From: a virus
Reading direction: 5' to 3' (one strand)
IMG/VR virus record: IMGVR_UViG_3300037010_001227
Span: 149,190-213,189 of that record
DNA length: 64,000 nt
The stretch's first letter is position 1. Every line of letters starts with the position of its first letter. Of this stretch, positions 40,493 through 60,155 are shown in pieces. The position numbers and the translations under genes were made by a program. The notes under the pieces were generated by a model. The model saw only the letters and a list, made by a program, of their open reading frames with translations. It did no database searches and was not told the DNA's origin.

Positions 40493-41961
40493 TGAAAGCA
40501 ACCAAGTATTCTAATTATTGGATTCAGATGGAATTTGAATCCGAAGCTGAAAGAGAAGCCTTAGAACGAGCGACCTCCTTTTCTATTCCAGGTTCTCAAT
40601 TCTCTGCTTCTTATACAGCAGGCTGTTGGGATGGTAAGAAACGATTTCTTACTGCTGCCAACAAACTTCCAATGGGGCTTTTTAAGAGTCTCTTTCCTAC
40701 TCATAGTTTGGTTTATAATACAAACCCGGATTATAGCTTCAATGACCTATCATTTTTTAGAATGAATCCACAATTTGCTGGGCGAAAGTATCAACTTGAA
40801 GCTATAAATACTATTTTTACCGAAAAACGACTTATTATTGCAGCAGTTGTAGGAGCAGGTAAAACTCTTATAGCTGCTGCAACCATCCTGAAGCATTTGG
40901 AAACTTTCCCGAAAGGGAAAGTTTTATTTGTAGTCTATGACAAAAACATTCTAAAACAAACTGCCGATAAGTTCACGGAATACGGTATTCCATATACCGT
41001 GTTTGGTGGTGGCACTAAAGATCTAACTGGTGATGTAGTAATTGCAACTATTCAGACTTTGAATAATCTCAAAAATCCAACAAAGTCATTAGCTGCTTTT
41101 ACTATGTGTTTTTCTGATGAAGCTCATCACTCTAAAGCAAAAACCTCCAAAGATATTTTCTCACGACTTAAGGGTTGTGAATACTATATTGGGTTAACTG
41201 GAACTCCTCCAAAACAAGGAACTTTAGACTATGCTGAGTTAGTTTGCACATTAGGACCAGTTCGATATGAATACGGATTTCAGACAGCTACTACTGCGGG
41301 TAATATTGCTCCTGTTAAGTGTTTCTTCCTTAGAACACCTTTCAGTTTCGATACAGCTGGTAAGACTGTGAACAGAAAGAATTATCAAACTATCTGGGAG
41401 AACGGTATACGGGATAGTGAAATAAGAAACAAGACAATAGCATCTGTTGTTGCTACTATTAATACGTTGTTAAAAACTCCTACATTAATTATGGTAGACA
41501 GAACGGAACATGGTTGTAATATCGGTGAACAGATAAAACAATTCCAAAACATACGTCACCTAGAAATGTATGGTGAAGATTCAATAGTAGTTAGAGAGGC
41601 TAAACGAGAATTTCTAATGAATAATGATATTGACATCTTAATCAGCACCTTAAACAAAGAGGGGGTCGACTTCGCTATATCGCCTGTGGTAGCATTTAAT
41701 GCTGCTGGTAGAAAAAGTTTCGTGAGTCAGATTCAATTCTTGGGAAGAATAGTTAGAAAGAATGAGGATTTTAAATCATTTCGAGTTTACTATGATTTCC
41801 TTGATATTGCACATCCTAAGCTCAAAGAACATTCAGAAGAAAGACTCCAGGCTTGCAGAGATACTGGATCGTCAGTAGTTATTTGTGAAAGTATTAATGA
41901 GCTATTAGCCAAAACTATTGAATACTATAAAGAGTGTGGTTTAAAGGCACCAACGTTTTAA
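40492..41961 (+). CDS. UvsW-like superfamily 2 DNA helicase
   Basis: A 489-residue helicase. After an N-terminal domain of about 100 residues come VVGAGKTLIAA (Walker A, near 122), CFSDEAHHSKA (DEAH, near 205), GLTGTPPKQG (motif III) and, in the second RecA domain, ISQFLGRIVRK-like motif VI (QIQFLGRIVRK near 417). T4 UvsW, of similar layout and length, unwinds branched DNA and R-loops and starts recombination-driven replication. The GTG start lies at the foot of a perfect hairpin carrying the ribosome binding site. It heads the replication gene run. Confidence 0.88.
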   Translation: MKATKYSNYWIQMEFESEAEREALERATSFSIPGSQFSASYTAGCWDGKKRFLTAANKLPMGLFKSLFPTHSLVYNTNPDYSFNDLSFFRMNPQFAGRKYQLEAINTIFTEKRLIIAAVVGAGKTLIAAATILKHLETFPKGKVLFVVYDKNILKQTADKFTEYGIPYTVFGGGTKDLTGDVVIATIQTLNNLKNPTKSLAAFTMCFSDEAHHSKAKTSKDIFSRLKGCEYYIGLTGTPPKQGTLDYAELVCTLGPVRYEYGFQTATTAGNIAPVKCFFLRTPFSFDTAGKTVNRKNYQTIWENGIRDSEIRNKTIASVVATINTLLKTPTLIMVDRTEHGCNIGEQIKQFQNIRHLEMYGEDSIVVREAKREFLMNNDIDILISTLNKEGVDFAISPVVAFNAAGRKSFVSQIQFLGRIVRKNEDFKSFRVYYDFLDIAHPKLKEHSEERLQACRDTGSSVVICESINELLAKTIEYYKECGLKAPTF

Positions 41962-41978
41962 TTGGCTGTAGTGGGAGA

Positions 41979-43331
41979 ATGGAAAAACAAACAATACAAT
42001 TACCCTTTAACAAGAAATTTCAGGCTGGATTAATTGTAGCAATGATTAAGGATTACGATTTCTATCGTAATATCGCTGATGACTTGCTACCAAGTTATTT
42101 AGATGCAGGACAAGCTCATATCAAGCTATTAAAGATTGTAAAGAGCAAAGCATCTTTATACAAGAAGCCTTTAACTATTGACATTATCAGAAATTCGCTG
42201 ATTGCCTTAGAAAAAGAGGGAGTATTTACTGAACCTGAAATCGCTGGCATTAATGCAGTGATTGATACTGGTTTAGGTTTAACTTTATCTGAATCAGCAT
42301 ATGTTAAACGTGAAGCATTTGAGTTTCTAAAGAAACAGGTAGTAGCTAAAGCAGTAAGCGAATCTATTGTTTATTTAGAAGAAAACAAATTAGATGAAGT
42401 CTATACGGCTATTACCGAAGCCTATAAAAAGACTTATGGTATTGGCGAGAACATAGGATATGATTACAAGAATTCTTCTATTTCTGATAGGTATTCTGAA
42501 CCACCAAGAAAAGGTATTTGGTCTTCTGGCTTTGCTAAGTTAGATCAATATATTGATGGTGGTTTTGCTTCTAGTGAGGCTTATACAGTAATTAGTCCTA
42601 CTGGTCGTGGTAAGACAGCCTTACTATGTAATTTTGGTGTAACAGCACTAACACAGAAAAAGAAATGTCTGTTCATTACACTTGAAATGCGAGAAGGTCA
42701 GATTGCACAAAGACAAGACTCAATTCTTTGTGGCTTTAGCGCAACTGAAATTGCAAACAATAGAGAATACCAAATGATTTTGGATCAGCAAATTCAGAAC
42801 AAAATCACAGGTGAGAACTTTATTAAGGGTTTCAACCGGGGTTCTTTAAGTATGGGAGCATTTAGAACATACTTAGATAGGTTCTGTAATGATATGTGGA
42901 AACCAGATGTTCTCATTTTTGATTGGTTAGGTTGCGTAAAATTGACTGGTGGAAAAGATGCCAAGAAACACGAACAGTTAGCAGAAATTGCTGACGATTT
43001 TATTAACCTAACAAGAGATTATGATTTAACTGGTATTTCTGCACATCAGAGTAATAGAAGTGCAGTATCTCAAGATGTGTTTGCTTATGATGTAGTTTCT
43101 GAATCATTCGCATCCTTGTTTGGTATGGATTTAGTGTTAGGTCTTGGTGCTACAAATGAAGCCAAAGATGCTGGTAAAAGAACACTCAGTATTCTTAAAT
43201 CTCGTATGGGTCCAGATTCAGTTTACACTAAGTTGATGGGTGATTTACCTGGTAAACCTTTAACTTTTAGGTTCAAAGAAAGTCTAATTGATGACGATGA
43301 AGAGAAAGAACTTCTTGAGGAGCAGCAATAA
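41979..43331 (+). CDS. DnaB-type replicative DNA helicase
   Basis: A 450-residue hexameric helicase. The frame is open from GTG 41934, but ATG 41979 behind GGGAGA is the better start. The N-terminal 170 residues are helical. The RecA-like core has SPTGRGKTALL (Walker A), PDVLIFDWLG (Walker B) and GISAHQSNRSA, with MGPDS and LTFRF typical of the end of the core. It unwinds DNA at the fork and would work with the family A polymerase encoded just downstream. No separate primase is seen in the window. Confidence 0.9.
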   Translation: MEKQTIQLPFNKKFQAGLIVAMIKDYDFYRNIADDLLPSYLDAGQAHIKLLKIVKSKASLYKKPLTIDIIRNSLIALEKEGVFTEPEIAGINAVIDTGLGLTLSESAYVKREAFEFLKKQVVAKAVSESIVYLEENKLDEVYTAITEAYKKTYGIGENIGYDYKNSSISDRYSEPPRKGIWSSGFAKLDQYIDGGFASSEAYTVISPTGRGKTALLCNFGVTALTQKKKCLFITLEMREGQIAQRQDSILCGFSATEIANNREYQMILDQQIQNKITGENFIKGFNRGSLSMGAFRTYLDRFCNDMWKPDVLIFDWLGCVKLTGGKDAKKHEQLAEIADDFINLTRDYDLTGISAHQSNRSAVSQDVFAYDVVSESFASLFGMDLVLGLGATNEAKDAGKRTLSILKSRMGPDSVYTKLMGDLPGKPLTFRFKESLIDDDEEKELLEEQQ

Positions 43332-43965: not shown

Positions 43966-45834
43966 ATGTCAAAAATACCGGTAATTTCAGTTTTAATTGT
44001 ATGTAAGATTACTGAAGACCAAGCAACAAATAAGATAAAAACTCTTCATGAGTATTTACCAACTGGAACTTGCTTATGTAATACCTTCACACTGTATACA
44101 ACAGAAATACAAGATGTTGTAGCATTCATTGAAGCAAATCCAGAAAAGTTAGATTTAATAATTCAATATGGCTTAGGAAATGACCTCTTATGGGAATCCG
44201 ATAAGTTTAAGGGTATTCCAACAGTATCAAATAATAATTCTTATGAAGAGCTATTTGGTGCTGACCACATAATGAGTGGTGAGTTATTTCCAAAAATCAA
44301 GAAGGTATACACTGGAATAGATGATTATAAGTCACTACCAGAAGGTCTTCATATTGCAAAAACCAAAGAAGATTTGAAATATATCACAGATAAATGTCTA
44401 GCTGAAGCATTTGGTGCTGACACTGAAACAAACTTCTTAAATCCATTTCTGGAAGATCCAAAACCAGAAATGGTCTGTTTCTCTGTGGCTTGGTTGAGTA
44501 ATGAAGATGAAGGTTGGTGTATTCCAACAAACCAAAAACTAATTGATTCTGGTGAATGTGAATACACAGTAGAAGAAGCAATAAGAGCAGCAGAGATAGT
44601 TTTCTTTGAAACAGAACAAGATCAGTATTGGCAGAACTTTCACTATGACGCTCTAGTTCTTTGGGAACTTTTCGGTGGTAGAAAGCCGAAAAATTTTGCC
44701 GCTTGTACAATGTTGCTTTTGAACTTGTATCATAAAGCTATGAAACCATCTTCGTTAGATAAAAACGTTCAGATGGTTGGATTACCAGCATATAAAAATG
44801 CAGCTAAAGATTGGATTGCTGAACAACCTAAACGAAAGAAAGGACAAGATCCTTATACTTTTGCAGATGTTCCTTTAGAAATCATTGGACCGTATGCTGC
44901 ATTAGATGCTTTGGCAGTAGTAAGAATTGTTAACTTCTTAAAAAAGAACTTACCCAACAAACAATGGGCATTCTACTATACTGTTATGCATCCAGTTCTT
45001 TTAAGTTCTCTTGATCTATGTATCCAAGGATATGAAATTTCTAGAGACCGATATATGTATTCTAAATTGTCTGTTGAAGAACAGATTTTAGAAGTATTCA
45101 AACAGACTATTGATGTTGTCAAACCAGAGATTCCAGAGCGGTTTAACATCAATAGTTCAAAGCAGTTAGCAACTTTAATGTATGATAAACTAAACCTCCC
45201 TGTGTTAGCAAAAACAGACGGTGGAGATCCTGCTACTGGTAGTAAAGTATTGGATGATTTGATTTTATTTCATCCTTTCATCTTCTATCTTAGTAAGTTT
45301 AAGAAGTTGATGAAGCTTTATACATCATATGTTTTAGGTTACGAAAACGTATTAGGCCCAGGTTCTAGACACGTTAAGACTAATAGCAGATTCATCTTTA
45401 ATGCTCAGTTGAAACAAATCAATAGAACAGCTAGACTTTCATCTACTAATATGTTTGGGTACAAGAAGACCACCAAAAAAGGTGGCAGCATTCTTACACT
45501 TCCTGGCACTGGGTCAATGGTAAAACATTATTTTGCACCAAGAGAGGTAGTTGCTGTCGAAAATGAATTGTATTCTGAGATTTTAGAAGCTCTTAAACAA
45601 TCCAACGAGGAAGAATATACAAAAGTTATAGCAGCTTTTGAGCTGGATATTACAAAGACAGTTAAGCCGCCTAAAGAAGTAAAAGAAAAGAAACCACGGG
45701 TCACGAAGAAGAAGCAGTTGTTAGCTGCACAACTACAGGCCGCGCAATTGTCAAATCCAACGTTGCTTAGTGAACTTGAGGAAGAAGATGAAAGTAATGA
45801 TTCTGTAGACTCTGATTTACCGTGGAATGAATGA
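43966..45834 (+). CDS. Family A DNA polymerase, N-terminal fragment (3'-5' exonuclease, thumb, start of palm)
   Basis: 622 residues. The exonuclease motifs are intact: ExoI D152-T-E154 (FGADTETNF), ExoII N224 to D228 (NFHYD) and ExoIII Y310 to D314 (YAALD). Then come a helical thumb region and TARLSS (488-493), the counterpart of TGRLSS in the palm, followed by FAPRE (523-527). Here the polymerase core stops. The final 95 residues are a charged, Lys- then Glu-rich tail (KKPRVTKKKQLLAAQLQAAQ) ending DLPWNE. Motifs A, B and C are absent and lie in a separate gene at 53.0 kb. The stop overlaps the next ATG. Confidence 0.9.
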   Translation: MSKIPVISVLIVCKITEDQATNKIKTLHEYLPTGTCLCNTFTLYTTEIQDVVAFIEANPEKLDLIIQYGLGNDLLWESDKFKGIPTVSNNNSYEELFGADHIMSGELFPKIKKVYTGIDDYKSLPEGLHIAKTKEDLKYITDKCLAEAFGADTETNFLNPFLEDPKPEMVCFSVAWLSNEDEGWCIPTNQKLIDSGECEYTVEEAIRAAEIVFFETEQDQYWQNFHYDALVLWELFGGRKPKNFAACTMLLLNLYHKAMKPSSLDKNVQMVGLPAYKNAAKDWIAEQPKRKKGQDPYTFADVPLEIIGPYAALDALAVVRIVNFLKKNLPNKQWAFYYTVMHPVLLSSLDLCIQGYEISRDRYMYSKLSVEEQILEVFKQTIDVVKPEIPERFNINSSKQLATLMYDKLNLPVLAKTDGGDPATGSKVLDDLILFHPFIFYLSKFKKLMKLYTSYVLGYENVLGPGSRHVKTNSRFIFNAQLKQINRTARLSSTNMFGYKKTTKKGGSILTLPGTGSMVKHYFAPREVVAVENELYSEILEALKQSNEEEYTKVIAAFELDITKTVKPPKEVKEKKPRVTKKKQLLAAQLQAAQLSNPTLLSELEEEDESNDSVDSDLPWNE

Positions 45835-46568
45835 TAACCGATAATCCTTTTTTCAGTGACAACCATTGCAATGCTTATATAAGTCAGTTAATAACTAAAC
45901 AAACACATGAATCAGCACTAGAACTTGTAAACATAGATAGTTTCAGGTATTCTGCTTTATATAAAGACCTTGGAATGAATCAGTCAGCAATGACAACTGG
46001 TAATAAATTAAACCAAGCTACTTATGTAACAAGTAATTATTCAACAATAGTTGATGGACATATCTTTAGAGGTAAACACTCTAGTCCTTCAGGGCCACCT
46101 GTTCAGAGCGGAATGTGTAAGGTTTCTTTATATTTGATTCCTGAAGATTCTGCATATGTTGGTGGTTACAGCGCAATTAGTATTGATTGTTTCATAGAAG
46201 TATACAAACTTCTTGGGGCAAGAAGTGTCTGCACAAATGATTCTTTATATTGGTTAAAGGGAAATACTTCTAAATTAGGATTACAGTTAATACTTTCAGC
46301 TGTAAAATGTGAACATGGTGACTATCACGTTGAAACCTATGATTTCATGACAGCTGATTCTAACAAGTATTTTTTAATTAAACTCTTACATATGTTTTTA
46401 GCTTCTTACTCATATATTAACAATCTGTATGACACAAGTGATCTAATATGTAAAGAGTTTTCTGATTTGATTTATAATAATATTGTATTACCTTGGTCAC
46501 CCAATGTTAGTAAGACAATCAGTGACGAAATCAAATATTCCTGGCTTAAGCATCACCTTATATTGTAA
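45831..46568 (+). CDS. Hypothetical protein between the polymerase fragments
   Basis: A 245-residue soluble protein whose ATG overlaps the stop of the N-terminal polymerase fragment (ATGA), so it is probably translated with it. It is Ser/Tyr rich with six Cys, mixed secondary structure and no recognised motif. It is the first gene of the block that interrupts the polymerase. Confidence 0.65.
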   Translation: MITDNPFFSDNHCNAYISQLITKQTHESALELVNIDSFRYSALYKDLGMNQSAMTTGNKLNQATYVTSNYSTIVDGHIFRGKHSSPSGPPVQSGMCKVSLYLIPEDSAYVGGYSAISIDCFIEVYKLLGARSVCTNDSLYWLKGNTSKLGLQLILSAVKCEHGDYHVETYDFMTADSNKYFLIKLLHMFLASYSYINNLYDTSDLICKEFSDLIYNNIVLPWSPNVSKTISDEIKYSWLKHHLIL

Positions 46569-46583
46569 TTTTATATATAACAT

Positions 46584-47341
46584 GCGGAATATATAAAGTT
46601 ACAAATACTATTAATAATCATTTTTACATTGGTTCATCAAGTAATATTCAGTATAGATGATCAAAGTATAAACATGATTTAAAAAACAAAATAAATATTT
46701 TAATAATCATCTTCAAAATGCTTGGAATAACTATACAGAACCTGTATTTGAGTTTTTATTTTAGAAACCTGTAAAAATCTAAATTAGTTGAGCGGGAACA
46801 ATATTTTTGGACTTATGCTATGATAATCATAATATACATTATAACACTAATAAAGTTTCTACTTTAAAGTAATGTTGATTATAAGCATACAACAAATAAC
46901 AAATTCTAAACAAAAAATATCTACTGCCAAGAAAGGGAAGCCTGGTAAAAATACCGTCAGCAGAAACTAAACAAAAAATAGCAGCCTTACTCATTGGTCA
47001 TTTTGTATCGGAAGCAACTAGACAAAAATTGACTGCTAATAGACTTAATATAAAACATACAGAAGAAACTAAAATATTAAAATGTCTATTAGTCATAAAA
47101 CACGTCAGACGTAAAATATCTGCTTCTAGACAAAATATATCAAAAGGAATTAAACAAAAATGAGTGATAGTCATAAAACATTTCTGATAATACAATGCTA
47201 AAAGTTATGACATATCTCCAAAATAATGAAATACCTATAGTACAAGCAGCAAACCAGTTTAATATACCAAAAAAAAGTATTTTGTATCGCAGAACAAGAG
47301 AATATACAAAGTTAATCCTTGACAACAATAACGCTATCTAA
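46584..47341 (+). pseudogene. Decayed GIY-YIG homing endonuclease with NUMOD repeats
   Basis: The text starts CGIYKVTNTINNHFYIGSSS, a clear GIY-YIG core, then a TGA. It continues in another frame with NKYFNNHLQNAWNNYTEPVF, the usual second half of the domain. Later pieces read TKQKISTAKKGKPGK and ATRQKLTANRLNIKHTEETK (NUMOD3-like), and finally YLQNNEIPIVQAANQFNIPK (NUMOD1/HTH-like) to a TAA at 47339. Many stops and shifts. It sits just downstream of the polymerase N-terminal fragment and could mark the event that split the gene. Confidence 0.8.
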
Positions 47342-47936
47342 GAGTAATACTAAAATTGGGAATATTGCTAGTTTTTCTATACCCTCCAAAGTTAGATGCT
47401 TGGGCAAAACACTCTGGTGTGAAAAACATTGTTATGCGTATAAATTAGAAGTTAGATTTCCAAATGTACTATCAAGTTATAAACGTAACTTTGAAGCTAC
47501 AAAAGATATGTTCTTTGTAGATAATATGGAAATAGCAATTAAAAAATTACCAAAGAAAATAAAGATTATCCGTATTCATGTATCGGGTGATTTTTATTCT
47601 CAAGATTATATTTATGACTGGACTAATATAATTGCTAATCATCCTGATTATCAGTTTTATACTTACACCAAAGCTTGGAGGATTACAGAACTTCTTCCAG
47701 CTCTAGAACTTATGAAATCTTTACCAAATCTTACTATGTTTGCATCTACTGATATAGATACGGTAGCAAATGGTGAGAAAGTTCCACAAGGTTGGAGAGA
47801 AGCTTATTCTGGAGATATTCAACCAAAAGGTTCTGTATTTTGTCCAAATCAAGCTGGTAAGATAGACACATGCGAACATTGTAAACTTTGTGTCAAACCA
47901 AAACTAACATCGACAATTTATTTCAAAACACACTAG
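47319..47936 (+). CDS. Phage GP88-like protein
   Basis: A 205-residue protein with a TTG start at 47319. It shows the features of the GP88 group of phage proteins: CLGKTLWCEKHCYAYK near the N-terminus (three Cys and a His), IRIHVSGDFYSQDYI, YTYTKAW, and a C-terminal cluster CPNQAGKIDTCEHCKLC. The Cys set could bind a metal or iron-sulfur cluster. The biochemical role of the family is not established. The first residues overlap the tail of the decayed endonuclease. Confidence 0.8.
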   Translation: MTTITLSKSNTKIGNIASFSIPSKVRCLGKTLWCEKHCYAYKLEVRFPNVLSSYKRNFEATKDMFFVDNMEIAIKKLPKKIKIIRIHVSGDFYSQDYIYDWTNIIANHPDYQFYTYTKAWRITELLPALELMKSLPNLTMFASTDIDTVANGEKVPQGWREAYSGDIQPKGSVFCPNQAGKIDTCEHCKLCVKPKLTSTIYFKTH

Positions 47937-47941
47937 GAATC

Positions 47942-48337
47942 ATGAAAATCGTAAAATTTAAGGATATGCATAGTGGTGGTAGAAATAAAGAATCTTATGC
48001 GTATATCTATATTGAAGCAATGGGAGAAGACACTGCAAGTTTAATATTTTATAATCGGTTTGGTCATAATCCAAATAGAGTCACTTGCACCTGTTGTGGA
48101 GAAGATTATAGTATTGATGAACACAATGATTTATTATTAGCAACTGCATATGAACGTGGATGTAAATATGATGAAACCTTATGTGCTTATGTAGAATGTC
48201 CAGATGTAGATAAGTCTTGGAGACCTTACGAATCTTTATCAAAATATCTAAACCGAGAAGATGTTCTTTTTATTTGTGATGAGGATGTAAAATCAGAAGA
48301 ACGTTGTGGAGAACTTCCTAAACAGGGTTATGTCTGA
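47942..48337 (+). CDS. Conserved phage protein with Cys motif
   Basis: A 131-residue protein. The ATG at 47942 behind AGGA is preferred to an in-frame ATG (47888) inside the upstream gene. The central CTCCGEDYSI segment (two or three Cys) and the following helix LLLATAYERGC are those of a common phage protein of unknown function, with an acidic C-terminus. It follows the GP88-like gene by 5 bases. Confidence 0.7.
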   Translation: MKIVKFKDMHSGGRNKESYAYIYIEAMGEDTASLIFYNRFGHNPNRVTCTCCGEDYSIDEHNDLLLATAYERGCKYDETLCAYVECPDVDKSWRPYESLSKYLNREDVLFICDEDVKSEERCGELPKQGYV

Positions 48338-48348
48338 GTGGACTAAAG

Positions 48349-48735
48349 ATGAATAAAAAATACCAAGTAGTTCTGATGCAGGGACATTTACTCTGTAGCA
48401 CGCTAGAAAATAGGCTATCCCTTCCTCTTGATAATAGTTCATTTAATATTATTAAACTCAATAAAAATGAACTTAAAGAGTATATGAAATCTGCAGTCAT
48501 TTTTTCTGGAACACGACCCCTACATAATAAGTCTTGGACTATTGTGTATAGGTATGATTTGCCACACTACCATCTTGATGGTGTTCTACCAAAACTTCCA
48601 GAAGATTACGTCTGGATTCCTGTAGAGAGATTTAGAGATGGCTCTTATGACTCAAAGGAAACTCAAAATCAATTTCTTCCATCTCATTTAACCAAACTTA
48701 AGCGAATGCTTAATGATATTGAGGCATTAAAATAA
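48349..48735 (+). CDS. Hypothetical protein
   Basis: A 128-residue basic protein with no recognised motif. The stop overlaps the ATG of the CCA-adding enzyme gene (TAATG), so the two are likely co-translated. Confidence 0.62.
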   Translation: MNKKYQVVLMQGHLLCSTLENRLSLPLDNSSFNIIKLNKNELKEYMKSAVIFSGTRPLHNKSWTIVYRYDLPHYHLDGVLPKLPEDYVWIPVERFRDGSYDSKETQNQFLPSHLTKLKRMLNDIEALK

Positions 48736-50018
48736 TGCTTAACATAGATATCCCAATGGATTTGGTAGAGATACTCAAATCCTTTGAAGCTCAAATTCCT
48801 GGAACAGAGTTTAGGTATGTTGGTGGTTGTATTAGAGATACCATTCTTGGGATTAAGCCTAAAGATTGGGATATCGTTACTGATGCTTCTCCTGAACAGC
48901 TTGAGTCTCTTGGATTGTCCAAGGTAGGGAAAGACTTTCCAGTTTTTCTCTACCAACATCCTACTTATGGGCAAATAGAAATAGCTTGTTGTAGGACAGA
49001 GAGAAAAGTAGGAACAGGCCATAACGGTTTTGAAGTTAAAGTCTGTAAATCTTTTGAAGAGGATTTGAAACGACGAGACTTGACAATCAATGCTGTTGCT
49101 TGGCACCATAAGAATGGTGGAACTATTTACTCTCCTGTTCCTCTTGAACTCTTGGAGTATGATTTTGAGAATCATGTTCTCTGCCATGTGTCTCCAGCTT
49201 TTGCTGAAGATCCTTTGAGAGTTTTGAGAGTAGCAAGGTTCCAAGCTAAACTGTCTTGTCAAAATTCTACTATTCAATACTTTTTCAGTGTTGATACGAC
49301 TACTTTGGCATTGATGGCAAGTTTGAAAGATGAGTTAAACAAGGAACCAGTAGACAGAGTAAAGAAAGAGTTTGAGTCTGTAATGCTCGGTTCTAATCCA
49401 AAGAATATCTATCTTTTCTTCGCAACTCTTTATAATAGTAGATGTGGAGACTGGTATAGAGAGATTTGTACTACAATGTCCACACCTACTTCTAAGTTCT
49501 ATATCTTTCCAGAGACTTGTAAACAAAGAGTAGATGCTTTGTATCTTCATTTTGCTGAGGCAGCATATAATTTGGCTGGACCAATAGATACAAAACATAT
49601 GATTGCAGAAGCTAGTTGCAAGAGACTCAAACTTGGTTTGGTTTCTGAAATGAAAACTTATCTAGACTTGAGAACACGAATCTCAGAATTTTCACTTGGT
49701 ATAGCAAACAACAGTTTCTTTTGTTCTCCTCAATTAGCTAAAATGGTAATGCTTTGTAAACAGTTGAATCGCGGTAAGTTTCCGGCTCATATTTACTTTG
49801 ATATGATCCGAGAAATGGCCGCTCCTAGATGGTTTATGAAGAGTAATCATATAAACTATCAAGAGCAGGCTCTTGACATGTTTGAGTATATGTATTTGGC
49901 TTTTACTAATCTCAAGTTTAACAATACACAAACTCCACAAGAGATATTTGCTATCCAAACAGATTGTGTTACTGAGTTTGTTGAGATTTACTGTAAGAAA
50001 ACTATAAAGGATATATGA
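48735..50018 (+). CDS. tRNA nucleotidyltransferase (CCA-adding enzyme family)
   Basis: A 427-residue class II nucleotidyltransferase. The head domain shows YVGGCIRD (GG at 30-31), then D44-W-D46 (KPKDWDIVTDA), the metal pair, and RRDLTINAVAW near 114, the flexible loop motif. FAEDPLRVLRVARFQAKL near 155 is the nucleotide-selection region. The remaining 230 residues are the helical body and tail that hold tRNA. It would add or repair the 3' CCA of tRNAs, in keeping with the RNA ligase and Pth2 genes of this phage. It lies in the block between the two polymerase pieces. Confidence 0.88.
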   Translation: MLNIDIPMDLVEILKSFEAQIPGTEFRYVGGCIRDTILGIKPKDWDIVTDASPEQLESLGLSKVGKDFPVFLYQHPTYGQIEIACCRTERKVGTGHNGFEVKVCKSFEEDLKRRDLTINAVAWHHKNGGTIYSPVPLELLEYDFENHVLCHVSPAFAEDPLRVLRVARFQAKLSCQNSTIQYFFSVDTTTLALMASLKDELNKEPVDRVKKEFESVMLGSNPKNIYLFFATLYNSRCGDWYREICTTMSTPTSKFYIFPETCKQRVDALYLHFAEAAYNLAGPIDTKHMIAEASCKRLKLGLVSEMKTYLDLRTRISEFSLGIANNSFFCSPQLAKMVMLCKQLNRGKFPAHIYFDMIREMAAPRWFMKSNHINYQEQALDMFEYMYLAFTNLKFNNTQTPQEIFAIQTDCVTEFVEIYCKKTIKDI

Positions 50019-50236
50019 GAGATGAACAAATATATATATAAGACTTTACATGCAGGAACTGAACAACGTCTGAATGTGTAAAATAGTATACATCACGATC
50101 AACGTTTTGTAGGTTTGTTATACGTTGTTATACTTGTGATAGAAAGTTTACAAGCAGCTGGAGATATTATAGCTTGCTCTTATAAAATGGACTCGCAAAC
50201 CCTATGTGTTCAGAACTAAAGGTATCAGATGAGTAA
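50015..50236 (+). pseudogene. Zinc-finger-like small gene with four in-frame stops
   Basis: From ATG 50015 (overlapping the previous TGA) 73 codons stay in one frame to TAA 50234, with TAA, TGA, TAG and TAA inside. The text includes VIRCYTCDRKFTSSWRYYSL and NGLANPMCSELKVSDE, a Cys-x-x-Cys zinc site. No frameshift is needed. It overlaps the start of the next gene as a real gene would. Confidence 0.5.
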
Positions 50237-50582
50237 ATATAAAATCTTACTTATACCTGAAGGTAGATGTTTATCAGAAGGTGAAACTACTGTATATGTT
50301 ATTTTAGAGCAAATTAATAATTTAACTAAACTTGCAATGATGTATTATAAAGAATATTTATTTGAGCAACAGCAGGATCCCTTTAGTAACCATGCCAAGA
50401 ATATCATCAAAGACTTAGATGTTGTGTTACAAAAAAGTAGCCTATTACGAGCCTCCTTATGTAAGGAAGCTGTATTTATATCTTACAAAAAAGCTCAACA
50501 GGGATTACTATTTTATTTAGACTTCAATTCTCCAGAAGATAAAAAATATCACTTAACAGAGTTCGAGTTTATTAAGGAATAA
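50229..50582 (+). CDS. Hypothetical protein related to the small paralogue array
   Basis: A 117-residue protein. The start KYKILLIPEGRCLSEGETTV and end KYHLTEFEFIKE match the pattern of the array at 6.2-7.2 kb (strand ending in PE near the N-terminus, EF-strand at the C-terminus). A long helical insert lies between. Function unknown. Confidence 0.62.
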   Translation: MSKYKILLIPEGRCLSEGETTVYVILEQINNLTKLAMMYYKEYLFEQQQDPFSNHAKNIIKDLDVVLQKSSLLRASLCKEAVFISYKKAQQGLLFYLDFNSPEDKKYHLTEFEFIKE

Positions 50583-50583
50583 T

Positions 50584-50952
50584 ATGGCTAAGAAACCATT
50601 AAAAGTTCCCTTTGATCCAATCTCAGGAGAACTTCTTCCTGATGGATATATCCCACACCAAATTTTTGATGACTCTATTAAGGCTTATATAGCAAATCCA
50701 TCCAGTGGAATGGAGATAGATTATAGAGATAATTTTGTTTTTCATACTAAAATGAAAATCGAAAAGATGACGTCTACTTATAGCGGAAGTCCTAAAATAA
50801 TCCTGTCTGAAGTAGATTCAGGTTTCAGATTTAAAATGTATAGCAACGAGTTTAACGACGTAGTTGATAGAATTCAAGAAGGTGGTATTCTTGATTTAGA
50901 TTGGACTTTTTGTAGTAAGGGTGGTAATATTGCTGTCAAAGCTGTTTTATGA
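50584..50952 (+). CDS. Hypothetical beta-rich protein
   Basis: A 122-residue protein beginning AKKPLKVPFDPISGELLPDG. The core is beta-rich, with EIDYRDNFVFHTKMKIEKMT and FRFKMYSNEFNDVVDRIQEG, and ends in alternating strands. A decayed relative is at 54.4 kb. The stop overlaps the next small ORF (ATGA). Function unknown. Confidence 0.65.
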   Translation: MAKKPLKVPFDPISGELLPDGYIPHQIFDDSIKAYIANPSSGMEIDYRDNFVFHTKMKIEKMTSTYSGSPKIILSEVDSGFRFKMYSNEFNDVVDRIQEGGILDLDWTFCSKGGNIAVKAVL

Positions 50953-51092
50953 GCGAAAGAAAATCTATCTCAAAGAAGCAAAAAGTTAAGATTTATAAAG
51001 CTAACAATAGACTTCAGACTATGTGGATGAAGTTGTCAACTAGAGTAAGAAAAAACAAAAAGAAAGATATAACACCATTGAGGGATGAATAA
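50949..51092 (+). CDS. 47-residue basic protein
   Basis: The ATG overlaps the previous stop (ATGA). Nearly one third of the residues are Lys or Arg (ERKSISKKQKVKIYKANNRL and STRVRKNKKKD), suggesting nucleic acid binding. No motif. Confidence 0.5.
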   Translation: MSERKSISKKQKVKIYKANNRLQTMWMKLSTRVRKNKKKDITPLRDE

Positions 51093-51242
51093 GTATACTA
51101 GGAATTATTGCACTTAGTTTTTGCAACTTATCTGTATAGTTATTCAGCTATACAATATGAGTATAATAGAACTTTAAATATATGGTTAGTATTGTTAAAT
51201 CTAACTTTATTTATAATTAGTCTTTATCAATTTCTCAAATGA
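51085..51242 (+). pseudogene. Decayed small membrane protein
   Basis: ATG 51085 opens NKYTRNYCT and a stop. A shifted frame then reads ELLHLVFATYLYSYSAIQYE and LNIWLVLLNLTLFIISLYQF to TGA 51240, with two hydrophobic spans. One frameshift near 51100 broke it. Its end overlaps the methyltransferase ATG. Confidence 0.45.
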
Positions 51243-51778
51243 TTTTACAACCACATAAAACGGCTATTAAGAGAAATAAGCCATCACGAATTGCTAAATA
51301 TATTGTTGAAACTATTATTCCTGAAACAGGTTTTAAATCAATACTAGATTATGGATGTGGAAAAGGTGATGATTGCAATTATTATTTTTCAAATGATTTA
51401 CTTACTAGTGGTTATGACCCCTATTACATTCCGCATCTGAATAATGAATTTAGATATGACATAGTTGCATTAACCTATGTGTTAAATGTAATAGATAATG
51501 AACAAGATAGAATATTAACATTTAAAAAAGCATTAGACAAAGTGAAACCTGGTGGTATTTTTGTTGTTACTGTAAGATCAGACAAATCTATCTTTTATCA
51601 GGCTTCTACAAAATCTTGGAAGTTTCATAATGATGGTTTTATTACATCAGAATCTAAAGGAACCTTTCAAAAAGGATTCTCAATACAAGATTTAATGTCA
51701 TATGCTAATTACTTTAACTTTACAAATGTAGAATCCATATTTGACGACGATTGTGTAAGTATCTTACTTAGGTGTTAA
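51239..51778 (+). CDS. Class I SAM-dependent methyltransferase
   Basis: A 179-residue enzyme with a Rossmann methyltransferase core. ILDYGCGKGDD (near 37) is the SAM-binding loop, followed by SGYDPYY with an acidic residue after the second strand, DIVALTYVLNVIDN as motif IV region, and LDKVKPGGIFVVTVR as the typical later strand. The target (small molecule, nucleic acid or protein) cannot be deduced. It is compact and probably lacks a target-recognition domain. Confidence 0.82.
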   Translation: MILQPHKTAIKRNKPSRIAKYIVETIIPETGFKSILDYGCGKGDDCNYYFSNDLLTSGYDPYYIPHLNNEFRYDIVALTYVLNVIDNEQDRILTFKKALDKVKPGGIFVVTVRSDKSIFYQASTKSWKFHNDGFITSESKGTFQKGFSIQDLMSYANYFNFTNVESIFDDDCVSILLRC

Positions 51779-51780
51779 TT

Positions 51781-52303
51781 ATGAAGGTTTTAGTTGCATG
51801 TGAATTTCAGGTAGAGTAAGGAAGCAAAAGGTCACGATATTCTAAGTTATAATTTACTTCTAATTAAAATTCCTTGACCACATTATCAAGGTGATATTAA
51901 AGATATCATTACTGGTGGTTGAGATATAATGATTGCGCATCCACCTTGCACTTATCTGACTGTTTCTGGTGCAGCATGGTTTTAAAAAGAGCAAGCAGAA
52001 GCATTAGAATTTGTTAAACTTCTTATGAATGCACCAATTGAAAAAACTTGTGTTGAAAAATCCAGTCAGTATTATAAATACTAAACTAAAAACCCAACAC
52101 AAATTATTCAACCTTAGTAAATTGGTCATCCTGAATTAAAACGAACTTATCTCTGGTTAACAAACTTAGAACCATTAGTTCCAACTAATACTGTTGTTTG
52201 TAGAATATGTAACATTCTTAAAATGTCTCCACTAGATAGTTAGAAAGATAGTAGCAAAATTTACCACGGCATTGCAGATGCTATGACAAGTCAACGTGGT
52301 TAA
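51781..52303 (+). pseudogene. Decayed DNA methylase-like gene
   Basis: ATG 51781 opens KVLVACEFQVE. After a shift near 51812 the frame reads KGHDILSYNLLL, PHYQGDIKDIITGG, IMIAHPPCTYLTVSGAAWF and on. Further on come NPTQIIQP and GHPELKRTYLWLTNLEPLVP to TAA 52301. Stops (TGA, TGA, TAA, TAA, TAG-TAA, TAG) replace residues such as Trp in GGWD-like and Gly in PGPH-like contexts, and one A-run insertion lies near 52057. IAHPPCTYL is the catalytic Pro-Cys type motif of phage cytosine methylase-like proteins. The conserved text between stops shows decay is fairly recent. Confidence 0.65.
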
Positions 52304-52309
52304 AGTAAA

Positions 52310-52595
52310 CCGACTTAACTGAAGATGAGCTTGAAGTTCATATTGGTAAAGTTGAGTTTATAGAACAACAAATAGAAAACACATACAACAACAGTGAGAA
52401 AGGGTTTGGAGAGAACAGGCCAGAAATCTTGGTAACTATGACTCTATTCTGAACAAGTTAAAAGAGATAAGAATAGATTGGTAGAAGAAAGACAAAACAA
52501 TTGGTTTAATAAACCCTAAGGAAAAGGCTAAGAAAACCATTCAATACTATCTTTCAAATAATTCTCAATATCAAAACTGTGAGTTGAAATCATAA
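52310..52595 (+). pseudogene. Decayed helical protein gene
   Basis: Two frames joined near 52430: LTEDELEVHIGKVEFIEQQI and GFGENRPEIL, then NYDSILNKLKEIRIDW, a TAG, and KKDKTIGLINPKEKAKKTIQ and on to TAA 52593. No start codon remains. The charged helical text suggests a former protein of about 90 residues, unknown family. Confidence 0.45.
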
Positions 52596-52596
52596 A

Positions 52597-53048
52597 GGCT
52601 AACATAACAATAGGATTTTATCTAGGTAGTTTCAATCCACTTCATTTTAGTCATTAAGGTGTTATTGAAAAGGTATTAAAACTATTTGATATTACAGTTG
52701 TTGCACACGGTGTAAATCTAGAAAAGCATCAAGCTTTAAATGCTGAACAACCTATCAGAATTGCCATAAGTTTAAACTTAATGTTTGATTATAGAGTTCA
52801 TCTGATTAGGTTTTCTGGTCTTTGATTTATGGTTGATGCAATAAAAGATTACGAAACTGATGGAAGGTGGAAAATTATTACAGTAATTCAGTAATTATAA
52901 TGATTTACAATATGAAATGAACCAACAGTATTAGAATAAAGATTTAGGTCTTGGAATCCCTGTTGTATATTTTATTACAGATCAAAACCTGGCTCATATT
53001 AGCAGTTCAGTAATTAGAACAATAGAGCAACTCAAAAAGAAGGTATAG
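52597..53048 (+). pseudogene. Decayed phosphopantetheine adenylyltransferase-like gene (CoaD type)
   Basis: One frame reads ITIGFYLGSFNPLHFSH, TAA, GVIEKVLKLFDITVVAHGVN and LEKHQALNAEQPIRIA, then RVHLIRFSGL, TGA, VDAIKDYETDGRW. After a shift near 52880 come NYNDLQYEMNQQY, TAG, NKDLGLGIPVVYFITDQNLA and HISSSVIRTI. GSFNPLHxxH, the LVD(A/Y) segment and ISSSxIR are the CoaD (PPAT) signatures for joining ATP to phosphopantetheine. Three in-frame stops, loss of the RGLR segment and no start codon make it dead. It complements the intact coaB- and coaC-like genes at 58.4-60.2 kb. Confidence 0.72.
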
Positions 53049-54376
53049 TGATAACGGCGGAATTAGAAAAACTACATCAATCGAATTTCAAGTCTCTAAC
53101 AAAGGCTGGAGTTGACTGGTATAATATTGTAAAAAACAATCCTAAGTTATTAGAAAAATATTTATGCTATTTAAAACTAAAGTCTGAATATATCATGGTA
53201 AACATTGACTTTAGTCAGTTAGAATTATATGTTCTGGCATCTTTAAGTGGCGATCCAGATATGATTGCAACTGTGAACTCTGGACGAGACTTACATGATG
53301 TGAATACTGAAAAGGTGTATGGCATTAGCAAGTCTGAACGTGAAGCTGCTCATAAGCTGGCAGAAGCCAGGTTTAAAGAAAATCCCACAGAAGAGAACAA
53401 TAAGTTAGTTAAATCAGCAGAGATGCTATTAGAAGATTTCAAGACTAAACGTAAGTTTATTAAGGCTCTTAGTTTCTCCCTAACTTACGGAGCAGGAGCT
53501 AATAAGATTGCGAGAGACTTGAAGATTACAATGGCAGAAGCTTTAAAACTAATCAATGACTTCTACAACACATATCCAAAGGTAAAAGAATGGCAGGAAA
53601 AGACCTTCTTATTCGCCATTCGTAATGGATATGTAGAAACTCCTTTTGGTAGACAACGAGGAACTCCACGTATTCATAATAGAATGGATGCTTATGAAGC
53701 TCTGGTTTTAGAGAAGCCAGCAGTAATCAGTAAGTTAAAGAAAGCTGGAGAGTATTGGTCTTTACGAGAAGAACAAAAAGTTTGTAAAAATACTCCAGTT
53801 CAGTCTACTGCAACTGATATGTGTTCTTTATCTTTCTGTATTATTAGAAAAGAGTTCAGAAAGAATCTACTTCGTAGAGCTAATCCATTTTTCTGGGTTC
53901 ATGATGCTAACGTATTTTCCTCTCATATTGATACAGCAGTAGATAATATCAAATATGTTGTAGAAATCATGGAGAACAATGTTAAGTATAAAGGCGATCC
54001 AGTCAACTATCGTGCTGAAGCAGAAGTTGGTTATAATTACGAATACGTAGCTGGTATCAAACGTTCTGAGATTTACAGTGATGCTTTTACTAAAGAACTA
54101 ATTCTGAAGAAATTAGAAGAATCTTTAGTAGCTGATCTTAAAAAGAAGTTCAAGTTGGTTATCAAATCTACTGGCACTTCTATGGATAAAATTAAAGACT
54201 ATGTAGATGCACAACGAGAAGCTAAGGGCCAGTATTTCAACGATCTTGTGGAATCTCTTGGATTAGGTGTTTCTACTCCAGATAATTACATGGCATTAAT
54301 GAACCAAATGACTTTATCAGAATATATAGAAGCTGAAGAGACACGATTAGGTGAAGATGAGGAAGAAGATGAATAA
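53048..54376 (+). CDS. Family A DNA polymerase, C-terminal fragment (palm and fingers)
   Basis: 442 residues with a GTG start behind GAAGG. After a 50-residue lead (LEKLHQSNFKSLTKAGVDWY) comes motif A, D54-F-S-Q-L-E-L-Y61. The O-helix/motif B follows with R135, K139, F143 and Y147 (KRKFIKALSFSLTYG). Motif C is V284-H-D286-A287, where the usual HDE has Ala in place of Glu. Residues 210-250 hold an insertion-like helical segment. The C-terminus ends in an acidic run. Together with the 622-residue product at 43.97 kb it makes one complete family A polymerase. The two presumably associate. Confidence 0.9.
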   Translation: MITAELEKLHQSNFKSLTKAGVDWYNIVKNNPKLLEKYLCYLKLKSEYIMVNIDFSQLELYVLASLSGDPDMIATVNSGRDLHDVNTEKVYGISKSEREAAHKLAEARFKENPTEENNKLVKSAEMLLEDFKTKRKFIKALSFSLTYGAGANKIARDLKITMAEALKLINDFYNTYPKVKEWQEKTFLFAIRNGYVETPFGRQRGTPRIHNRMDAYEALVLEKPAVISKLKKAGEYWSLREEQKVCKNTPVQSTATDMCSLSFCIIRKEFRKNLLRRANPFFWVHDANVFSSHIDTAVDNIKYVVEIMENNVKYKGDPVNYRAEAEVGYNYEYVAGIKRSEIYSDAFTKELILKKLEESLVADLKKKFKLVIKSTGTSMDKIKDYVDAQREAKGQYFNDLVESLGLGVSTPDNYMALMNQMTLSEYIEAEETRLGEDEEEDE

Positions 54377-55373: not shown

Positions 55374-55805
55374 ATGAAAAATCTATATATAGACACAGAG
55401 TTCAACGGTTTCAATGGCCGTCTAATTTCAATGGCTATTGTCGCTGATCTTAATAACTATTTCTATGAAGTTATTGATATTGATGATGGCGAACCAATTG
55501 ATCCTTGGGTAGCACAAAATGTAATGCCCAAACTTAATCAGGAGCCACTAAAGAAATTATTTTTTCAGTCTAAACTGATTCTATTTCTAAATCAGTGGCC
55601 TGAAGTAAATATCATTGCAGATTGGCCGGATGATATTTCTCACTTCTGTAAGATTCTTATGACTCAGCCAGGAGTTAAGATCAGAACTCCTAGACTTCAT
55701 TTTGAAGTTAATCCAGACCTTAAAGATGTAATTTCTGAATTGCCACATAACGCTTTAGAAGATGCTAAAGCTATCTATAAATCCAGTTGGGACTACGACG
55801 AATGA
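55374..55805 (+). CDS. DnaQ-like 3'-5' exonuclease
   Basis: A 143-residue compact exonuclease-fold protein. It starts MKNLYIDTEFNG, giving ExoI D7-T-E9. NIIADWPDDISHF in the middle is the ExoII-like segment, and HNALEDAKAIYKS at the end supplies the ExoIII His and Asp. It would trim RNA or DNA 3' ends. The small size suggests an exoribonuclease or nucleotide-end trimming role. An in-frame ATG at 55350 exists, but the ATG at 55374 behind TTGGAAA gives the usual start of the fold. The stop overlaps the next ATG. Confidence 0.8.
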   Translation: MKNLYIDTEFNGFNGRLISMAIVADLNNYFYEVIDIDDGEPIDPWVAQNVMPKLNQEPLKKLFFQSKLILFLNQWPEVNIIADWPDDISHFCKILMTQPGVKIRTPRLHFEVNPDLKDVISELPHNALEDAKAIYKSSWDYDE

Positions 55806-56125
55806 GATACGCAATACTCTGTCTGGCAAATGGAGAATATATTAGAACAAAATCTCCAGCTATTTTTAGATTTTGTGAAACTTTTGTAAGAACTGAATCT
55901 AATTATGATACAATAATGCACAATTGGTATCGTAATGTCAATGAGACAAGAATAGAATTTACTACAAAAGAAGCTGCTGATTGGTTTATTAGACGTAGGT
56001 TATCTTTTAATCCAAATAGAAAAGAAAGTAGTAAGTTGATGGCAATGAATGAGTTGTTTGAATTCAATGGAATAAATCCTCTATCACGCAAAACTGAATA
56101 TGAAATTCATGAGATTCAAAATTGA
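55802..56125 (+). CDS. Hypothetical protein
   Basis: A 107-residue basic protein. The ATG overlaps the exonuclease stop (ATGA) and is chosen over the in-frame TTG at 55787. It is Arg- and Asn-rich, helical in the second half (TKEAADWFIRRRLSFNPNRK). No motif recognised. Confidence 0.62.
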   Translation: MRYAILCLANGEYIRTKSPAIFRFCETFVRTESNYDTIMHNWYRNVNETRIEFTTKEAADWFIRRRLSFNPNRKESSKLMAMNELFEFNGINPLSRKTEYEIHEIQN

Positions 56126-58187: not shown

Positions 58188-58411
58188 TAAGAGTATTAAT
58201 TTCTGAGACTAGTAATGGTAATTTTAAAGAACTTGATTTAACGGATTATTTACAAGATAATCTAAGCTTAGATATTAGTGTAATTCGAGGAAATCATGGT
58301 TCTAGACTATCTATAAAATTATTGTTAGACGAAGAATATAAACACGGAGTTTATAAACCAGTTGAACTGTGTGAAAACTCGATAGACATAAAAGGTATTG
58401 TGGAGGATTAA
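58184..58411 (+). CDS. Intact 75-codon ORF without a standard start
   Basis: The frame runs open to TAA 58409, which overlaps the coaB-like ATG (TAATG). The only start candidate correctly spaced behind AAGGA is ATA at 58184 (ATA GTA AGA GTA), as if an ATG had mutated. The product (RVLISETSNGNFKELDLTDY, then YKPVELCENSIDIKGIVED) is protein-like with no internal stop. Either a weak ATA start is used or the gene was silenced by loss of its start. Confidence 0.45.
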   Translation: MVRVLISETSNGNFKELDLTDYLQDNLSLDISVIRGNHGSRLSIKLLLDEEYKHGVYKPVELCENSIDIKGIVED

Positions 58412-59109
58412 TGAAGGTTCTTGTAACATCTGGTGGAACTAAGATTAAAATTGATATGGTTCGTTCTATTACTAATATGAGTAAAGGAACATTTGGAGCA
58501 AAAATCGCAGAAGCTTTTCTACTCCAAGATTCTGAATTAGACGTAGTATTTCTTCATGCGAAAGGTTCTAGATTGCCTTTTGATGAAGCTGATGACTATT
58601 TTGAAAAATATTCAAAGAGTGTTGAGTTCGTAGAATATGAGACTTTTACTGATTACCAAGACAGACTAGATGAACAACTTAAGCTACAACCAGACATTGT
58701 TGTTCTAGCTGCTGCTGTATCTGACTATGGTGTGGCAAATTATGTTAGTGGTAAAATTCGAAGTAAAGAATCTATGACTATTGAATTAACACCACTACCA
58801 AAGCTCATCAGCACAGTAAGAGATACATGTCCAACTGCTGTTATTTGCGGATTTAAACTTCTTGTTAATTCTACACAGGGAGAATTACTTGTAGCTGGAA
58901 TGGAATCTTTGTTTAAAAACAGACTTGACTTAGTTGTTGGAAATGATCTTCGTGACATCAAGGCAAATAACCACAAGCTGACCATCATAGAAGGAACTAC
59001 TAGTGATTGGAAAGCTACTGTATATAAGAAGCATGAGCATAGTCTTCCGAATGTTGTAGTTAACAAGTGTTTTGAACATTTACATATTGAGCGGTGCAGC
59101 GAGCTATGA
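58411..59109 (+). CDS. Phosphopantothenoylcysteine synthetase-like (CoaB type)
   Basis: A 232-residue protein of the CoaB fold, which joins phosphopantothenate and cysteine using CTP or ATP. It starts KVLVTSGGTKIKIDMVRSIT and NMSKGTFGAKIAE, matching the SGGTxxxIDxVRxITNxSSG lead of the family. VVLAAAVSDYGV, GKIRS and LTPLPKLI are the following conserved strands, and VVGNDLRDI the late one. In most bacteria CoaB is fused to CoaC, but here CoaC is the next, separate gene. Its last bases overlap the coaC-like start. Confidence 0.85.
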   Translation: MKVLVTSGGTKIKIDMVRSITNMSKGTFGAKIAEAFLLQDSELDVVFLHAKGSRLPFDEADDYFEKYSKSVEFVEYETFTDYQDRLDEQLKLQPDIVVLAAAVSDYGVANYVSGKIRSKESMTIELTPLPKLISTVRDTCPTAVICGFKLLVNSTQGELLVAGMESLFKNRLDLVVGNDLRDIKANNHKLTIIEGTTSDWKATVYKKHEHSLPNVVVNKCFEHLHIERCSEL

Positions 59110-60155
59110 TGAATATCCTCTTAGGAATAACAGGTAGTGTAGCAGCTACCTTAATTGATAAGTTAACCAAAGAATTTATAGGTCGAGGTCATGACATTAG
59201 AATAGTAGTGACTGACAGAGCTTTCCAATTCTTACCTTCAGAAACTTATCAATTCTATTATGCTGACTCAGATGAGTTCTATCGACCTGGAGAATATCAA
59301 AAGGATGGACTTGTCACGCATATTGATCTTCGTGATTGGGCAGACGTTTTCATAATAGCTCCTTGTAGTGCAAATACCATGGCTAAATTAGCTAACGGTA
59401 TATGCGACAATCTTCTTACCTCTATAGCAAGAGCTTGGGACTATAAGAAGCCCTTCTATATCGCTCCAGCTATGAACACGTTAATGTGGACTAATCCAAT
59501 GACAAAAATCCACATTGACTTTCTTTCAAAAACATTTGGAATAAAAACTATCTGGCCGACATCAAATAAACTTGCTTGTGGTCAATGTGGAATCGGAGCG
59601 ATGGCTCATGTTCATACAATTGCCAATATAGTTGAAGGACATAAGTGGTATATGCCTATTAGTTTTTATGGTCATAATACATTCCTTCCAGAATATCCTC
59701 ATCCAGGAGCTTTTGGAACTACACGAGCAAAATACAACCATACCGGAGTAGACATTTATAGTGATTTATGTCATAGTATAAATGCGGTTGAAGATGGAAT
59801 TGTAGTAGCAATAGAACCATTTACTGGAACTGCTGTAAATATGCCTTGGTGGAATGATACATATCATATTACCATAAAAGGTAAGTCTGGCCTTGTTGTT
59901 TATGGAGAACTCAACCCACATGACTGGATAAAAGTTGGTAGTGAACACAAAGCTGGATATTGTGTTGGATATGTAGAAAAAGTAATTAAAAATAGTCCAG
60001 AAATTCAGCCGGATAATTGGCGGCCAAATATGTTACATATTGAACTACTACATCCAGATGCACCTTGTGTAACAGCATTAGATTGGCCGTTAAATACAAG
60101 TAAACAATCGTATTTGTTAGACCCAACACCATATTTAAAACTATCTCAAAATTAG
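59106..60155 (+). CDS. CoaC-type flavoprotein fused to an M23 peptidase-like domain
   Basis: 349 residues with two domains. Residues 1-180 are a phosphopantothenoylcysteine decarboxylase: LLGITGSVAA start, H72 in THIDLRDWAD, the flavin loop APCSANTMAK (86-94), PAMNTLMW (121-128) and LACGQCGIGAMA (156-167). Residues 185-349 resemble an M23 (LytM-like) peptidase: H212-T-G-V-D216 as the first zinc pair, and H311-I-E in the place of the HLHFE motif, with Met-Leu-His replacing His-Leu-His. One catalytic His is thus absent. I know of no standard fusion of this kind. ATG 59106 overlaps the coaB-like stop (ATGA), preferred to GTG 59094. Confidence 0.82.
   Translation: MMNILLGITGSVAATLIDKLTKEFIGRGHDIRIVVTDRAFQFLPSETYQFYYADSDEFYRPGEYQKDGLVTHIDLRDWADVFIIAPCSANTMAKLANGICDNLLTSIARAWDYKKPFYIAPAMNTLMWTNPMTKIHIDFLSKTFGIKTIWPTSNKLACGQCGIGAMAHVHTIANIVEGHKWYMPISFYGHNTFLPEYPHPGAFGTTRAKYNHTGVDIYSDLCHSINAVEDGIVVAIEPFTGTAVNMPWWNDTYHITIKGKSGLVVYGELNPHDWIKVGSEHKAGYCVGYVEKVIKNSPEIQPDNWRPNMLHIELLHPDAPCVTALDWPLNTSKQSYLLDPTPYLKLSQN

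Follow-up and report, generated by a model that had tools for sequence, protein, structure and literature searches.

Single-chain polymerases are exemplified in the textbooks by those of family A (Klenow, Taq, T7). The stretch of DNA analysed here, hereafter the window (64,000 nt), comprises bases 149190-213189 of the 213,189-b linear virus record IMGVR_UViG_3300037010_001227 and closes that record; in it the parts of a family A polymerase are encoded by two open reading frames (ORFs), here named PolA-N and PolA-C, which are separated by a gap of 7,213 nt. The question raised by this locus is whether the two products make up one working polymerase, or whether the gene is broken, spliced, or replaced by two genes of separate function. 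The family A motifs are not all on one chain; in two viruses they are divided between two separate ORFs. We consider it highly probable that the two products assemble into one exonuclease-polymerase, and we infer that both are expressed, that they form an active complex and that additions at the break may help the chains to dock. The phage is T4-like: a gp20 portal, a gp23 major capsid protein, a tail sheath and a RecA-type recombinase were identified in the record, together with a weak gp32 match.

The initial annotation had described a first gene carrying the exonuclease motifs, TARLSS and a 95-residue tail, and a second gene carrying a lead and motifs A, B and C. Both ORFs proved to be open with the corresponding residues intact, and the lead measures about 47 residues (Table 1). 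Both products are above the Pfam cut-off for family A DNA polymerase (PF00476 with DNA_pol_A_exo1): PolA-N matches positions 22-125, the first third, of the DNA_pol_A profile and is alone in matching DNA_pol_A_exo1, and PolA-C accounts for the remainder, its match reaching position 379 of 381. PolA-N retains D152/E154, Y310/D314 and R490, all in columns that are invariant or nearly so in its alignment (A7); in PolA-C, D54, R135/K139/Y147 and H285/D286 are invariant in an alignment with 53 other family A polymerases (A6). The AlphaFold2 models had a mean predicted local distance difference test score (pLDDT) of 76 for PolA-N, with a confident core and about 82-92 for residues 530-570 of the helical tail, and of 87 for PolA-C, with palm and fingers mostly above 90. 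Both models were matched by Foldseek to Klenow, Taq or Bst.

The break was placed by eye; the tails confused automatic alignment. The body of PolA-N ends in ...GSMVKHYFAPRE (last residues ...YFAPRE, to residue 527) and the body of PolA-C starts at ...YIMVNIDFSQ, and in this by-eye alignment no core residue is lost. The break falls at the surface, in the turn between two palm strands (F-x-P strand / motif A strand), the Klenow equivalent being ...FIAPE / DYVIVSADYSQ. Unsplit polymerases at other IMG/VR loci have the two motifs on one chain, and TGR, when it could be recognised, mostly precedes motif A by 35-50 residues.

In Klenow and Taq, the TGRLSS arginine and the thumb touch the primer-template, and the aspartates of motifs A and C bind metals. 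Since in the window the arginine and thumb are on one chain and the catalytic aspartates on the other, a polymerase active site would exist only if the chains associate. The replicative polymerase would then be a family A enzyme in two chains, a heterodimeric exonuclease-polymerase in which PolA-N would supply the exonuclease for proofreading as well as the thumb and the first strand of the palm, where the TARLSS arginine lies, and PolA-C the remaining palm and the fingers, with the O-helix and all three catalytic motifs. Neither chain would have a complete active site by itself; the two would fold together along the interface that the palm naturally provides, and an extra docking element may be formed by the additions at the break, which are a helical tail in PolA-N and a helical lead in PolA-C. 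The halves might instead act apart, PolA-N as a free exonuclease and PolA-C as a polymerase or some other enzyme, without assembly, and family A enzymes do have a structurally separate exonuclease domain. However, PolA-N retains the thumb and the TARLSS palm strand, which would be useless to an exonuclease alone, PolA-C is without a thumb, and both parts are conserved in both viruses, so that separate action appears improbable.

The second virus, IMG/VR 3300028666_000375, was found among the matches listed in a motif-A-based alignment scan of IMG/VR. Its PolA-N (607 aa) and PolA-C (431 aa) are encoded on the same strand with 3.8 kb between them, and the proteins are 46% (PolA-N) and 53% (PolA-C) identical to those of the window. 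The upstream replication cluster is collinear in the two viruses over about a dozen genes, which include a helicase-like gene, the DnaB-like helicase gene and the short gene preceding PolA-N. An assembly or sequencing artefact, a natural concern for a metagenome contig, is barely conceivable here, given an independent virus with the same split whose N half, together with a few hundred bases 3' of it, recurs at 100% identity, junction included, in a contig of another metagenome. The presence of the same arrangement in the second virus excludes chance or sequencing error.

Comparison of the two viruses by codon position showed that third positions in the bodies of the two proteins are 38-51% identical, against an amino acid identity of 34-61%. 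The PolA-C lead (residues 1-46) is 39% identical and 65% similar, with third positions at 39%, and the first half of the PolA-N tail is 33% identical and 56% similar, with third positions at 40%. As the silent positions are largely randomised while the protein is retained, both halves, as well as the tail and the lead, are under purifying selection. Of all the evidence for a functional split gene, this conservation as protein despite near-random third positions is the strongest, and it makes the split an old one, the fission predating the divergence of the two members of the lineage. The polymerase could still be thought of as broken and decaying in a phage that relies on a host enzyme or on some other polymerase, and several real pseudogenes do lie in the gap. 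Both halves, however, are open and have lost no catalytic residue, and the second virus still has the same halves at 46-53% identity, with third positions near-randomised; we regard decay as extremely improbable.

The two ORFs might also be exons joined by RNA splicing (through a group I intron, perhaps in trans), or the parts of a split-intein gene, in either case yielding one chain. Near the break site, phage family A polymerases commonly carry introns or inteins: in SPO1 a group I intron lies upstream of motif A, and in Streptococcus phage vB_SagM-GXN1 (PQ819873.1) motif A of the family A polymerase is interrupted by an intein-like insert (QPDF...VVHQ / SQNEVRAL) a few residues away from the break site. 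Against this, Rfam detected no intron in the gap of either virus at E<=5, the control SPO1 intron being found at E 4.6e-4; by inspection neither the tail nor the lead contains a Cys/Ser start block or an HN end block, and no intein family was matched by either gene. In addition, eight intact genes occupy the gap, and conservation at the protein level extends to the tail, which has its own stop codon, and to the lead, which has its own start codon. Splicing at the RNA or the protein level is unlikely, and the production of a single chain from these two ORFs very unlikely.

A profile search of the whole 213,189-b record with DNA_pol_A returned PolA-N and PolA-C only, and neither DNA_pol_B nor PolIII alpha was detected in it, although the controls worked; thus the check for another polymerase, proposed with the initial annotation, revealed no PolA, PolB or PolIII besides the two halves in this 213-kb record, which may be incomplete. 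With no other such polymerase detected and both halves under selection, the assembly of PolA-N and PolA-C into a working enzyme is the best reading. Several points weigh against it. The record is linear, and a complete polymerase could be encoded in a missing part. The PolA-C lead was modelled as four short helices with modest confidence (pLDDT 54-67). The charges of tail and lead are opposite in the window (-4/-5 vs +4) but not in the second virus (-3 vs -1), and docking through opposite charge was rejected on this ground. Finally, the lineage is known from two members only, no third being found among the matches listed in further IMG/VR and genome_contigs scans.

The searches covered one phage BLAST collection and the IMG/VR scans, and further members may exist. 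Single-protein IMG/VR scans with each half gave no match, the 8-residue patterns having fallen in variable stretches. The relatives by major capsid protein (61-66% identity) are partial contigs in which neither the polymerase nor the helicase was found, and they are uninformative on the split. Nor did a close unsplit homologue, on which the initial annotation had hoped to map the break, turn up among the matches listed in the viral_contigs scans; unsplit family A polymerases are no more than about 30% identical.

A split family A polymerase has been described in the OM43 phages MEP401 and MEP402, where the authors suspected an intron (PMC10580990). We found the same split in Alcaligenes phage QDWS535 (OK172329.1), ctOsX528 and ct2os315 (MW202796.1); in QDWS535 and ct2os315 the polymerase is annotated as two genes. 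The two ORFs of QDWS535 overlap, meeting at TAATG, which excludes an intron there, and Rfam gave no intron match on the MEP401-type split. An R67 dihydrofolate-reductase-like ORF lies between the halves in ctOsX528, and about 3.6 kb with seven genes, a cytosine methyltransferase gene included, in ct2os315. As in the window, these are family A polymerases encoded by two same-strand genes downstream of a DnaB-like helicase gene, with the exonuclease and TGRLSS in the first gene, motifs A-C in the second, and variable genes that may intervene; the N half is just downstream of the helicase gene in MEP401, QDWS535, ctOsX528 and ct2os315 alike (about 1.1 kb away in QDWS535). They differ from the window in their smaller genomes (43-50 kb) and in that tail and lead are short or absent at the break.

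The MEP401 break (...TLFLSRYGE / MILNADAKALE) is in the same turn before motif A as that of the window; breaks in the group read ...FLSRYGE / MILNADAKALE and ...MFVSRF... / MLVSIDAGQIEW, compared with ...FAPRE / ...YIMVNIDFSQ in the window. The C-half tree and the N-half tree both placed the MEP401 group with the unsplit HMO-2011 and HTVC033P (support 100/99 in each), apart from the lineage of the window. Forcing all split sequences into one clade was rejected by the approximately unbiased (AU) test, with p 0.020 (C half) and 0.044 (N half); these p-values are modest, the branches are long, and a first tree preceded the test of the grouping. The two lineages probably split independently. We lean, with some reserve, towards the view that at least two independent splits at the same turn before motif A mark a natural split point, and that in the T4-like lineage the replicase would have become obligately two-subunit, the PolA-N tail and the PolA-C lead forming a helical module dedicated to docking.

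Two other candidates for split polymerases were rejected. The half-length PHROG families phrog_2573 and phrog_12241 were considered as known split polymerases, and phrog_2573 best matches SPO1 exon 2. In the locus L044 (IMGVR_UViG_3300005711_000004), about 2.6 kb lie between the N and C parts, the break is SPO1-like and the interruption is probably an intron. A very divergent, short family A polymerase-like ORF (456 aa), below the Pfam cut-off, was observed in the 484-kb uncultured phage LR756508.1.

Split phage polymerases were already known, including the family A pair of MEP401 and an active family B pair, the gene 43 products of phage 25, which co-purify (PMC2988022). Gene 43 (43A/43B) of the Aeromonas phages 25 and 44RR resembles the window in being the replicative polymerase of T4-like phages in two genes, but it belongs to family B, and what is associated with its break is a seg endonuclease gene (25) or an untranslated spacer (44RR) rather than a 7-kb block of unrelated genes. 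The NrdA of Aeh1 is an essential enzyme that still works in two polypeptides (PMC2988022); it is a different enzyme, and the mobE homing endonuclease gene sits in its break. The polymerase of MIJ3, from a gene fractured by a split intein (PMC6892783), is likewise a phage polymerase from separate ORFs, but of family B and with intein halves, none of which was seen in the window. In the group 2.2 jumbo phages (PMC7824862) a two-protein polymerase from distant genes has been predicted, which differs in being of the minimal PolIII alpha type with a family B polymerase alongside. New in this case are a lineage of T4-like phages, helical segments that were added at the break and are conserved, a gap that is large and has changed, and evidence for a cut at the same turn in two lineages. 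A stable natural two-chain form, long kept and apparently reached independently, would mark where the fold tolerates cutting. It may show how gene fission becomes fixed in phages and serve as a natural template for the split polymerases of biotechnology; annotation pipelines may label such halves as partial, intron-split or broken.

The eight intact genes and several pseudogenes that had been noticed in the gap were recovered as eight intact ORFs and GIY-YIG, DNA-methylase-like and nucleotidyltransferase-like remnants (Table 1), and 30% of the gap lies outside called ORFs, compared with 13% of the genome. The GIY-YIG remnant does not directly follow PolA-N, as had been described; the intact 245-aa ORF comes first, and this ORF gave no significant match to the ORF at the same place in the second virus, leaving homology unsupported. 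By inspection, stops in the decayed genes at 51800-53040 and 46583-47310 often stand where tryptophan is expected (TGG to TGA or TAG). In the second virus, the gap (L040 7594-9777) contains a DNA-methyltransferase-like gene, then a probable nuclease gene (by inspection) and a sigma-factor-like gene, the match of which in the window's genome sits elsewhere. The methyltransferase-like and nuclease genes may be a restriction-modification pair. No genes shared between the two gaps were detectable, and the gap appears to have collected different genes in each virus after the fission. A sigma-70 promoter scan remained at chance level.

Over 24 aa the GIY-YIG remnant shares 75% identity with a GIY-YIG ORF that is intact in the second virus and sits there between two helicase genes, outside the polymerase gap, and further GIY-YIG copies are scattered elsewhere in the window's genome. 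The fission may be the work of the endonuclease, which may equally have come in afterwards, and a homing-endonuclease origin is possible. Gene 43 of Aeromonas phage 25 has met with the same doubt about an endonuclease as the cause (PMC2988022). Of the interpretation given in the initial annotation, the part on one polymerase in two genes holds up well, both genes being under selection and the tail and lead real and partly conserved; a split made by an endonuclease is a possibility, the remnant being in the gap here and the copy of the second virus elsewhere.

Table 1. Positions of the two polymerase genes, their motifs and the neighbouring features in the window
Feature	Position	Strand	Remarks
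DnaB-like replicative helicase	41934..43331	+	PF03796; upstream of PolA-N; order same in second virus
PolA-N, 622 aa, ATG start	43966..45834	+	3'-5' exonuclease, thumb, TARLSS, first palm strand; body 1-527 plus C-terminal tail
TARLSS	45427..45444	+	R490 equivalent to TGRLSS arginine; T488/R490 nearly or fully invariant in A7
PolA-N tail, residues 528-622 (95 residues)	45547..45831	+	Predicted helices 526-546, 548-558, 562-566, 581-594 (AlphaFold2)
245-aa ORF	45831..46568	+	No family match; overlaps PolA-N stop codon
Decayed GIY-YIG homing-endonuclease-like gene	46583..47310	+	PF01541 at 46583-46804; stops: one TGA, one TAA; past 46804 by inspection
GP88-like ORF	47319-47936	+	Intact
ORF	47888-48337	+	Intact
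ORF	48349-48735	+	Intact
tRNA nucleotidyltransferase-like ORF	48735-50018	+	Intact
ORF	50229-50582	+	Intact
ORF	50584-50952	+	Intact
Methyltransferase-like ORF, 179 aa	51239..51778	+	PF13489, E 7e-9
Pseudogene stretch	51800..53040	+	DNA-methylase-like, then nucleotidyltransferase-like remnant; naming by inspection only
PolA-C, 442 aa, GTG start	53048..54376	+	Palm and fingers, motifs A, B, C, C-terminal extension; AGAAGG just upstream
PolA-C lead, about 47 residues	53048..53188	+	Ahead of YIMVNIDFSQ; predicted helical
Motif A aspartate D54 (NIDFSQLELY)	53207..53209	+	Invariant in A6
Motif B (R135, K139, Y147)	53450..53488	+	Invariant in A6
Motif C (H285 D286)	53900..53905	+	Invariant in A6

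Some further features of the two genomes were observed. A large tandem family of small ORFs (about 65-140 aa), with starts like MSKYRILCIETGEYL or MTKILYIPNGEYI, has few copies in the window (50229-50582, 55787-56125) and dozens in the second virus (L040 163-2768; many places in G013/G014). Radical-SAM-like CxxxCxxC motifs were seen by inspection in several ORFs of the phage genome (G000:C1:3044-5589, 146577-147461, 148089-149060). Downstream of PolA-C in the window, the adjoining genes at 58411-59109 and 59094-60155 resemble the two activities of the coenzyme A biosynthesis protein CoaBC; the former matches a CoaBC-like gene of Methanothermobacter phage psiM100, and the latter was assigned by inspection.

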